Assembly: GCA_021793295.1 (NCBI GenBank)
Contig: JAJYTA010000027.1
Coordinates: forward strand, 1-35,517
Length of the DNA: 35,517 nucleotides
DNA from: Actinomycetes bacterium
GTDB taxonomy: Bacteria; Actinomycetota; Actinomycetes; Jiangellales; Jiangellaceae
Reading direction: 5' to 3'
Both the position numbers and the translations under genes were made by a program. Under the pieces are notes generated by a model. The model made no database searches. It was not told the origin of the DNA and saw only the letters and a list, made by a program, of their open reading frames with translations. Of this stretch, positions 15,754-20,454 are shown one piece after another (position 1 is the first letter of the stretch; every line of letters starts with the position of its first letter).

Positions 15754-16911
15754 TCAGCGATAGACGAGGCCGGACAGGCGCCGCGCGAGCCGCGTGCGGA
15801 AGGCCGGAAGCCGCCCGAGTACGCCCAGCACGATGTTGCGCAGCGGGCGAAGCGCCCGGTCCGCCGTCGCGAGGCGGGTCAGGCGATCGGCGAGCGCCAC
15901 GACCTGCTTGGCGACCGGCCGGCGCGTCGCGGTGTAGTCGTCCAGCAGCGTGGCCGAGGCGCCGGACAGGATCGAGTGCAGCGCCGAGCCGAGGGCGACG
16001 GCGTCGGTGATCCCGGCGTTCATGCCTTGGCCGCCGGCCGGACTGTGCACGTGTGCTGCGTCGCCGGCCAGAATGATCCGCCCGGCCCGGTAGGTGTCGG
16101 CCACGCGGTGGTGGACGCGGAACCGGGAGCTCCAGACGACGTCCTCGACCGAAACCGGGTCCGCCACCGGGCCACGGGAGTCGAGCAGGTGCTGGACGAA
16201 CGCGGCGTGCGGCTCCGGCGGTGCGGTGTCCACGGTGGCGACGATGCGGTGCGTACCGTCGGGCAGCGGCGCCACCACGACCAGTCCGGCCGGGGAGAAG
16301 TAGAGGATGACCTCGTCGTCCGGCACGCCTCCGCTGAGTTTGACGTCGGCTAGGGCGAAGGATTCGTCGTAGGTGGCGCCGTCGAACGCGATGCCGGCCT
16401 GATCGCGCACCGTGCTGTGCATCCCGTCGGCGCCGATCACGTAGTCGGCGCGCACCTGTGCACCGTCGGCGAACGTCACGGTGACGCCGTCGGCGTCTTG
16501 ATCCAGACCGGCGACGGTCGCCGGACGGACCACGGTGCCGCCGAGCTCGGCCAGCCGTTGGAGCAAGATGGCCTCGGTCTCGGCTTGAGAGATCATCAGC
16601 GTGTACGGGTAGGCCGTGGGCAGCTGCCCGAATGGCACCGGGACGAGGACACGATCACGGTCCCGGATGGTGAAGCGGGGCGCGTGTACGCCGCGCTCGA
16701 CCAGCCGGTTCGACACGCCGAGGGGCTCCAGGGCCTCGAGCGTGTGGGCGTGCACGACGGCGGCCCGGGACGTGTTGGCCCCGGCGGCCTGGTCGTCGAC
16801 GACCGTGATGTCGTGCCCACGCAGCGCGAGCGCGATGGCGACGGTCAGTCCGGTCGGCCCGGCGCCGACGACCAGGACGCTCGTACTGGTGGGAAGCGTG
16901 CTGGCGGACAT
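15754..16911 (-). CDS. FAD-dependent aromatic-type monooxygenase (PHBH fold)
   Basis: This 385-residue flavoprotein has the three marks of class A hydroxylases: VVGAGPTGL for FAD at residues 14-22, the DG motif GADGMHSTVR, and the GD motif ILAGDAAHVHSPAGGQGMN. Such enzymes use NAD(P)H and oxygen to hydroxylate aromatic or polyketide-like substrates, including tetracyclines and rifamycins. The ATG at 16911 follows AGGAG. It is divergent from a tetR gene, and their shared control region carries repeated operators. That layout is typical of a drug- or aromatic-inducible gene, but the substrate is unknown. C-terminal residues after ~350 are basic. Confidence 0.9.
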   Translation of the reverse strand: MSASTLPTSTSVLVVGAGPTGLTVAIALALRGHDITVVDDQAAGANTSRAAVVHAHTLEALEPLGVSNRLVERGVHAPRFTIRDRDRVLVPVPFGQLPTAYPYTLMISQAETEAILLQRLAELGGTVVRPATVAGLDQDADGVTVTFADGAQVRADYVIGADGMHSTVRDQAGIAFDGATYDESFALADVKLSGGVPDDEVILYFSPAGLVVVAPLPDGTHRIVATVDTAPPEPHAAFVQHLLDSRGPVADPVSVEDVVWSSRFRVHHRVADTYRAGRIILAGDAAHVHSPAGGQGMNAGITDAVALGSALHSILSGASATLLDDYTATRRPVAKQVVALADRLTRLATADRALRPLRNIVLGVLGRLPAFRTRLARRLSGLVYR

Positions 16912-16937
16912 GGCGACTCCTGTCGGCAACTGTTGGT

Positions 16938-17006
16938 CAACGCTTGTTGGCATCAACGTACGCCGACTCCTCGGCGAAGTCAACACTTGTTGGCAAACGC
17001 TTGTTG
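16938..17006. promoter_or_regulatory. Three TetR operator copies, CAAC-N4-GTTG
   Basis: CAACGCTTGTTG occurs at 16938-16949, CAACACTTGTTG at 16981-16992 and AAACGCTTGTTG at 16995-17006. The first two are perfect CAAC/GTTG inverted pairs; the third has one changed base. A shorter CAACTGTTG is at 16927-16935. Copy one covers the expected start point of the monooxygenase promoter; copies two and three cover the -35 box and spacer of tetR and the -35 of the monooxygenase. Confidence 0.7.
16955..16983 (-). promoter_or_regulatory. Predicted promoter of the FAD monooxygenase
   Basis: On the minus strand TTGACT (16983-16978) and TACGTT (16960-16955) are separated by 17 bp, a near-ideal actinobacterial promoter. 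The operator copy at 16938-16949 lies just downstream and that at 16981-16992 overlaps the -35 box. Confidence 0.65.
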
Positions 17007-17015
17007 GCCTACAGT
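16987..17015 (+). promoter_or_regulatory. Predicted promoter of tetR, leaderless
   Basis: TTGTTG (16987-16992) and TACAGT (17010-17015) are 17 bp apart. The GTG start at 17023 lies seven bases after the -10 box with no ribosome site, so the transcript probably begins at the start codon. Operator copies overlap the -35 and spacer, implying autoregulation. Confidence 0.6.
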
Positions 17016-17022
17016 CGGTGCC

Positions 17023-17586
17023 GTGCGAAGATCCTCGGAACAGACCAAGGCGACGATCCTCGCGGCGGCACGCGAGCGATTCGCCGTCGACGGGTATGAG
17101 CGCGCGACGATCCGGTCCATCGCAGCGGACGCGGCGATCGACCCGTCGATGGTCATGCGCTATTTCGGCAACAAGGAGAAGCTCTTCGCGGCGGCGGCAG
17201 AGTTCGACCTGCAACTGCCGCGGCTGGCGGGGCTGGACCGCGACGACGTGGGGGCCCGGCTCGTCGAGCATTTTCTCGACCGCTGGGAGGGTGACGAAGC
17301 CCTGATGGTGTTGCTGCGCTCGGCGGTGACGAACGCCGAGGCGGCGCACCGGATGCGCGCGATCTTCGCCGAGCAGCTACGGCCGGTGACTGACGAGTTC
17401 CTCGGCGAGCGGGACGACGGCGGGCAGCGAGCCGCCTTGGCGGCGAGTCAGATTCTCGGGCTCGCGCTGGCCCGCTACGTGCTGCGTTTCGATCCGGTCG
17501 TGGCGATGAGTCGCGCGGAGCTCGTGGCGTGGGTGGGGCCCACGGTGCAGAGATACCTCGCCGGCAGGCCCGAGGCGTCGGTGTGA
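17023..17586 (+). CDS. TetR-family transcriptional regulator
   Basis: The 187-residue protein has a TetR DNA-binding domain: KATILAAARERFAVDGYERA, then TIRSIAADAAIDPSMVMRYF and GNKEKLF (about residues 9-54). An all-helical ligand domain follows. I chose GTG at 17023 because the domain starts right there and a -10 box lies seven bases before; the open frame upstream covers the control region and the opposite gene. It most likely represses the divergent monooxygenase and itself through the CAAC-N4-GTTG sites, releasing them when a ligand binds. Its last ten codons form one arm of a terminator hairpin. Confidence 0.92.
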   Translation: MRRSSEQTKATILAAARERFAVDGYERATIRSIAADAAIDPSMVMRYFGNKEKLFAAAAEFDLQLPRLAGLDRDDVGARLVEHFLDRWEGDEALMVLLRSAVTNAEAAHRMRAIFAEQLRPVTDEFLGERDDGGQRAALAASQILGLALARYVLRFDPVVAMSRAELVAWVGPTVQRYLAGRPEASV

Positions 17587-19979: not shown

Positions 19980-19985
19980 TATGGT
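19980..19985 (+). promoter_or_regulatory. Putative -10 box for leaderless nitroreductase-family gene
   Basis: TATGGT fits TAnnnT and lies seven bases before the ATG at 19993, with no ribosome site. This spacing argues for ATG 19993 rather than the in-frame ATG at 19981, which would lie inside the -10 box. Confidence 0.4.
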
Positions 19986-19992
19986 GTCGGCG

Positions 19993-20454
19993 ATGTCGAC
20001 ACGACCGACTCTCGTCGAACGGCTCTTACAACGGCGAAGGCTGGCCCGCGCGCCCATCTGGATGTACCGGGCGCGGCTGGGTGTGCTCCTCGGCACCAGG
20101 GTGTTGCTGCTCGAGCACATCGGGCGGCGCTCCGGCCAGGCGCGTTACGCCGTGGTAGAGGCGGCCGAGCGTCCGGAGCCGGGTGTGTACGTCGTCGTCT
20201 CCGGGTTCGGCACCCAGGCGCAGTGGTTCCAGAACGTCATGGCCGACCCGAACGTGCGAATCTCGGTGGGATGGCGTTATCGGCGGCCCGCCCGCGCCCG
20301 GCGGCTGGGCGTCGCCGAGGCGCGCGGCGTGCTGGAGCGCTACGCCCTCGAGCACCCGCGGGCCTGGCGGACGCTGAAACCGATCGTCGAAGCGTCTGCC
20401 GACCGCGACCCGAACGGGCCTGATCCCGTCGTGGTGGAGTTCCGGCTGGTCTGA
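19993..20454 (+). CDS. F420-dependent nitroreductase-family (DDN-like) protein
   Basis: The 153-residue product matches the deazaflavin-dependent nitroreductase family (Ddn/FDOR-B split barrel). The marks are LLLEHIGRRSGQARYAVVEA, GVYVVVSGFGTQAQWFQNVM and DPNVRISVGWRYRRPARARR. These proteins use reduced F420 to reduce quinones, nitroaromatics or other compounds, sometimes at the membrane. The start at 19993 is favoured by a -10 box seven bases upstream. The presence of cofC in the same window is consistent with F420 use. Substrate unknown. Confidence 0.85.
   Translation: MSTRPTLVERLLQRRRLARAPIWMYRARLGVLLGTRVLLLEHIGRRSGQARYAVVEAAERPEPGVYVVVSGFGTQAQWFQNVMADPNVRISVGWRYRRPARARRLGVAEARGVLERYALEHPRAWRTLKPIVEASADRDPNGPDPVVVEFRLV

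Follow-up and report, generated by a model that had tools for sequence, protein, structure and literature searches.

Near the middle of the window, by which we mean the whole 35,517-nucleotide stretch of DNA analysed here, a gene for an FAD-dependent monooxygenase (FMO) and a gene for a TetR-family regulator (tetR) diverge from each other with 111 bp between their start codons, and the locus raises the question of whether this short region is a switch that the regulator operates on its neighbour and on itself. Our analysis makes it highly probable that the locus is a local, self-regulated TetR-type repressor switch over FMO that would be released by an inducer; FMO would then act on that inducer or on a relative of it. 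The features concerned are the following.

15754-16911, minus strand: FMO, class A flavoprotein hydroxylase, 385 aa, ATG start
16911-16909, minus strand: FMO start codon ATG, read from the sequence
16917-16921, minus strand: FMO Shine-Dalgarno AGGAG, read from the sequence
16924-16935, plus strand: O_L1, degenerate unit (6/8), in 14-bp register with O_L2
16938-16949, plus strand: O_L2, CAACGCTTGTTG, exact (8/8), over the predicted FMO start point (about 16948)
16955-16960, minus strand: FMO -10, TACGTT, at 17-bp spacing
16978-16983, minus strand: FMO -35, TTGACT
16981-16992, plus strand: O_R1, CAACACTTGTTG, exact (8/8); the FMO -35 lies within its left half plus the adjoining AGT
16987-16992, plus strand: putative tetR -35, TTGTTG (weak), at 17-bp spacing to the -10
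16995-17006, plus strand: O_R2, AAACGCTTGTTG, 7/8 and not exact, in the tetR spacer
17009-17020, plus strand: O_R3, degenerate (6/8), overlapping the tetR -10
17010-17015, plus strand: tetR -10, TACAGT, ending 7 nt before the GTG at 17023
17023-17586, plus strand: TetR-family regulator, 187 aa, GTG start at 17023, probably leaderless

The FMO protein matched the Pfam family FAD_binding_3 (3.2e-70, 237.5 bits, cut-off 22), which places it by domain among the class A flavoprotein monooxygenases. In an alignment of 26 rows, G16-A17-G18-P19-x-G21 was nearly invariant and D162-G163 and G283-D284 were invariant; we take these positions to be the motifs named GxGxxG, DG and GD, respectively. Searches against PDB sequences gave rifampin monooxygenase 5kow as the top match (6.2e-50), with polyketide oxygenases also near, and Foldseek placed the p-nitrophenol monooxygenase PnpA first against the AlphaFold model of FMO (mean pLDDT 91), followed by TedJ, OxyS, MtmOIV and Rox. 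Rox, OxyS, PgaE and MtmOIV were the best sequence relatives among solved structures and gave high structural matches. However, the chains of Rox and the polyketide oxygenases have 476-570 residues and FMO has 385, a length closer to that of PnpA or p-hydroxybenzoate hydroxylase; thus, FMO lacks the C-terminal part of those enzymes. The identity of a rifampin monooxygenase (Rox/Iri) was not adopted, because the NCBIfam model rif_monoox scored 216.4 bits on FMO against a cut-off of 800, and a reading as a tetracycline monooxygenase was considered and not adopted. Elsewhere in the window, an ORF at 19981-20454 resembles by eye the deazaflavin-dependent nitroreductase family and has no exact operator unit nearby.

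The regulator matched both TetR_C_16 (9.3e-33, 113.1 bits, cut-off 26.2) and TetR_N (1.4e-11, 44.5 bits, cut-off 24) above the curated cut-offs, and its model was all-helical (mean pLDDT 90), as befits the TetR_C_16 subgroup of the TetR family. By sequence and fold, its nearest solved structures were SCO0857 (2np3) and a Rhodococcus RHA1 protein (2guh), the titles of which give no function; these were also the best Foldseek matches to the model, with TM-scores of only 0.61-0.68. Its start residue is common to many orthologues.

The original prediction had placed CAAC-N4-GTTG sites on the FMO start point, on the FMO -35 and on the -35 and spacer of tetR, within two promoters of 17-bp spacing. 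Both promoters (TTGACT-17-TACGTT for FMO and TTGTTG-17-TACAGT for tetR) are present as read and the positions of the sites were confirmed, with the tetR -10 covered as well, but just two of the sites are exact, the third, O_R2, matching at 7/8 only. Together with two units at 6/8, these make up the CAAC-N4-GTTG units of the 111-bp intergenic region, which follow a 14-bp register inside each cluster. The right half of O_R1 is the putative tetR -35, and O_R3 is similar to a CTACAnTTGTTGnC-ATG unit found in many relatives. In the entire 35.5-kb window, the exact pattern occurs only as O_L2 and O_R1, with 0.36 occurrences expected, and at least two exact copies arose in 5 of 100 shuffles of the window; thus, the bare 12-mer is only modestly unusual by itself. 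The signal beyond it consists of the likeness of the left and right clusters, which are 30-nt blocks 80% alike, and of the conservation of the units across species. In the 4.67-Mb genome, the two matches listed for exact GTCAACN4GTTGGC both lie in the FMO-tetR intergenic region, and the tandem O_R1-O_R2 pattern has a single occurrence. A genome-wide search for the 16-mer with up to 2 mismatches did not discriminate, giving 171 matches forward and 174 in reverse versus 163 and 190 for the controls.

Conservation was followed in 91 loci, consisting of the window, 10 family-genome loci and 80 genome_contigs loci, the named-genome scan having contributed 80 loci with regulators of 57-69% identity, the best 80 of 158. 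The clade includes members from Mycobacterium, Nocardia, Streptomyces, Nonomuraea and others. Upstream of tetR, 88 of these 91 loci had an exact unit no farther than 130 bp away and 82 had at least two, while two control stretches inside tetR had an exact unit in 0 of 91 loci each and 100 Markov resamples gave a mean of 0.59 loci of 91, the largest being 3. When 11 near-duplicates (upstream regions >85% identical) were taken out, 77 of the 80 non-redundant loci had an exact unit and 71 had at least two. The exact unit was missing upstream of tetR in three loci: L107 has none across the entire locus, L033 has an inexact one only, and L079 is rearranged, with FMO followed by tetR on the same strand, three exact units ahead of FMO and one inexact unit ahead of tetR. 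Across the 80 loci (418,766 bp), 170 of 184 exact units fell within 175 bp upstream of tetR. The 14 outlying ones comprise the three before FMO in L079, two before an SDR gene in L063, one before an F420-dependent quinone-reductase-like gene in L033, two somewhat farther upstream of tetR in L122, and six for which we have no accounting (one each in L064, L083 and L101 and three in L086). The L086 record is a Rhodococcus MAG by its title, but the labels of the tree put it under Cyanobacteriota; either the contig or its label has probably been misassigned.

Two clusters could be defined in 74 of the 80 non-redundant loci, L033, L079, L107, L119, L128 and L130 being left out, and these 74 loci reveal how the units are fitted to the FMO promoter. 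The TTGAC of the FMO -35 was kept in 73 (TTGACA in 47, TTGACT in 23, TTGACG in 2, TTGACC in 1, and TTGGCG in the other), and a T precedes CAAC in O_R1 of 73/74 loci versus 37/74 for O_L (Fisher 8.5e-13). The -10 pattern nAnnnT was present at 17 or 18 bp in 71/74 loci, its frequency at spacings of 8-16 and 19-29 being 0-4%, and a second rise to 9-24% at spacings of 30-33 lies inside the left cluster. Conservation of the -35 and -10 therefore supports the FMO promoter as a prediction; it was used in place of a generic sigma-70 promoter scan, which returned no promoter in 16700-17200. With the FMO start point predicted at 7 bases past the best -10-like hexamer (spacings of 15-20 allowed), it lay 2-9 bp from the middle of the closest left unit in 72/74 loci, the exceptions being L122 and L123. 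An operator half-site and the FMO -35 thus share letters; one dimer would stop RNA polymerase at the -35 and a second one at the start point. The distance between the O_L and O_R clusters was 41-49 bp in 72/74 loci, with a mode of 43-44, and 29 and 111 bp in the other two. Phasing along the helix, or a loop joining the clusters, was considered and not adopted: the 41-49 bp range spans most of one helical turn, and the distance seems to be set by promoter geometry rather than by phase.

On the side of tetR, TAnnnT ends 7 nt ahead of residue 1 in 60 of the 80 loci, and in the 56 aligned FMO loci TACAnT overlaps the unit preceding the tetR start codon; thus, tetR is probably leaderless. A conserved tetR -35 hexamer was sought at the matching position of these 56 loci and none was found; the window has one additional unit between O_R1 and the tetR -10. 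O_L contains at least two units of at least 7/8 in 24 of the 74 loci. The intergenic regions of L032 and L126 have three tandem 14-bp units per side, and the operator array seems, from such sequences, to grow by whole 14-bp units.

The link between this operator and this regulator was also supported by the protein and by whole genomes. In the recognition helix, 80/80 orthologues carry M43, V44, M45 and R46. Twenty paralogues of about 36-41% identity carry H45 in all cases and H46 in 19, and exact CAAC-N4-GTTG was present upstream of one of the 20 paralogue genes (L011, where the flanks differ) and lacking in 19. A plasmid search for relatives gave 68 records, all with identity below 60%. In 22 genomes of the family (about 137 Mb by listed sizes), 11 of which encode a regulator orthologue of at least 50% identity, the tandem pattern CAACN4GTTGN4ACN4GTTG occurred at 16 places, counted as 25 strand-wise matches, each of them within roughly 100 bp upstream of a tetR orthologue. 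Of the 11 orthologue-bearing genomes, 10 had the pattern, G007 (the genome of L033, 51% identity) being the exception; 0 of the 11 others had it, and the reversed control pattern had 0 occurrences in the 22 genomes. By this pattern, the confinement to the region upstream of tetR argues for a local, probably single-target switch in the family, although single exact sites or weaker ones may lie elsewhere. These results make it extremely improbable that the repeats are by-products of the promoters or the sites of some other factor rather than of the window's TetR. The half-site TTGAC does coincide with the -35, so that its conservation is partly that of the promoter, but no promoter role is evident for the remaining half-sites, for the start-point unit or for the tandem copies at 14 bp, and the pattern tracks the tetR gene across genomes, also where the neighbour differs.

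The anatomy of the locus, with a divergent target and shared palindromes over both promoters, is that expected of a TetR-type divergent autoregulated switch, and joint repression of FMO with autoregulation of tetR is well supported as a prediction. In the absence of inducer, TetR dimers would bind TGYCAAC-N4-GTTGRC units spaced 14 bp apart in two clusters separated by about 43 bp. Occupancy of O_R would occlude the FMO -35 together with the tetR promoter and occupancy of O_L would cover the FMO start point, so that with both clusters bound FMO and tetR would be off or low. An inducer, in all likelihood of aromatic, quinone-like or polyketide type, would then bind the TetR_C_16 domain and release the repressor, and the induced FMO would oxidise the inducer or its relative. 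The binding, the inducer and the substrate in this model are what we infer from the sequences, and so is repression, since some TetR regulators activate. PMC3511530 names AtrA as one such activating protein, and it reports that each of the five tested TetR regulators with a divergent neighbour under 200 bp away repressed that neighbour (5/5). That the window's TetR is chiefly an activator or a dual regulator of FMO is very unlikely, because its sites lie over the -35 and the start point, a position for repression, and not upstream of the -35. Because the same arrangement recurs across actinobacteria, the locus very probably is a genuine chemical-sensing switch, though one of an ordinary kind.

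This kind of system is already well known, and the window's switch adds a member. Judged by arrangement, the nearest analogue with tests behind it that we found is SCO7222/SCO7223 of Streptomyces coelicolor, described in PMC3511530, where a TetR gene is likewise divergent from a monooxygenase gene. Its 146-bp intergenic region carries three footprinted palindromes, with two of the bound regions on the regulator side and one on the enzyme side, and a reporter showed repression. However, the operator there is TGGAACGNCGTTCCA, which is absent from the intergenic region here: with up to 3 mismatches it had 2 matches in the window (2288 and 27204; 2.09 expected by chance) and none in 16912-17022, and the operator is thus not of the SCO7222 type. 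In MabTetRx/MabTetX of Mycobacterium abscessus, likened by description only, a TetR protein represses a tetracycline-inactivating FAD monooxygenase and the inducer is anhydrotetracycline, a relative of the substrate (PMC6143652); those genes form a single operon with a 35-bp operator, whereas the genes of the window are divergent. TetR/TetA also has two operators between divergent genes, both of which are repressed, but with 15-bp palindromes and an efflux pump as the target, according to PMC3511530. No description of a CAAC-N4-GTTG operator was found in a literature search that strings printed without 'tetr' or as figures would escape. Motifs of mycobacterial TetR proteins are shown as logos in the part of PMC4482099 consulted, and the window operator may overlap one of them; PMC4258057, in its available portion, is unrelated to the window switch.

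Whether FMO acts on the inducer is best judged from the genes that stand opposite tetR in other genomes. Among the 80 non-redundant loci, an orthologous FMO (at least 50% identity) was present in 61, 60 of them divergent, and a distant FMO (35-40% identity) in 8, while tblastn detected none in the available stretch of 11, one of which, L123, has just 330 bp upstream. The tree of the regulators required 8 changes of the no-FMO label; many of its branches are weak and its bootstrap had not settled. Both operator clusters face an SDR gene in L118 and, in four loci, a member of an unnamed family of about 250 aa in the place of FMO.

L026, 620-1384, minus strand: unnamed-family member
L063, 1627-2367, minus strand: unnamed-family member
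L084, 1659-2420, minus strand: unnamed-family member
L098, 1548-2312, minus strand: unnamed-family member

The four share 41-72% mutual identity, and they gave no Pfam match and, in the three members scanned, no NCBIfam match. Three Streptomyces loci have UPF0060 (YnfA) and SDR genes opposite tetR (L119; L128, with UPF0060 assigned by Pfam and SDR by eye; L130, with both assigned by eye), but a second cluster was sought there and only the tetR-proximal one was found, and control of these genes is therefore doubtful. The extra exact units before the SDR gene of L063 (3319-3362) and the extra exact unit before the F420-dependent quinone-reductase-like gene of L033 (2090-2101) suggest that the regulator has a second target in those genomes.

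These partners bear on the part of the original prediction that required a ligand modified by the flavoprotein: joint repression and autoregulation are still predicted by the conserved anatomy, but the 11 of 80 loci without a detected FMO count against the strict form of the ligand claim. The chance is a little under even that the switch is real and its inducer is not the FMO substrate but a general signal, such as quinones or reactive electrophiles, served by an exchangeable enzyme. The persistence of the tetR/operator pair beside other neighbours, the repeated changes on the tree, the paired clusters facing SDR or the unnamed family, and the extra units in L063 and L033 all point this way. 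However, orthologous FMO far outnumbers every other partner, several of the alternatives (SDR, NmrA-like and F420-type) are oxidoreductase types that would fit enzymes for one compound class, and the Streptomyces loci offer the tetR-proximal cluster only. Such oxidoreductase neighbours also favour a looser form of the ligand claim. The partner set leans, by its sequences, to a redox or detoxification role. A broader reading, which we put forward tentatively and regard as somewhat improbable, is that an undescribed, MVMR-invariant, actinobacteria-wide TetR clade, with its expandable 14-bp arrays, a half-site doubling as the -35, a typically leaderless regulator and an exchangeable partner (FMO, SDR, F420-type reductase or the unnamed 250-aa family), would be a portable redox-detoxification switch for one aromatic or quinone class.

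The locus supplies an exactly defined operator, open to testing, for a TetR clade that is widespread and stands mostly beside a monooxygenase, and the sequence of this monooxygenase relates it to enzymes that modify antibiotics or tailor polyketides. The inducer of the switch, once found, would hint at the compounds sensed or detoxified and could give a compact biosensor. We also noted that L123 is a 3.8-kb Gemmatimonadetes MAG contig with operator-like units and an NmrA-like gene downstream of tetR, possibly the result of transfer or of a binning error.
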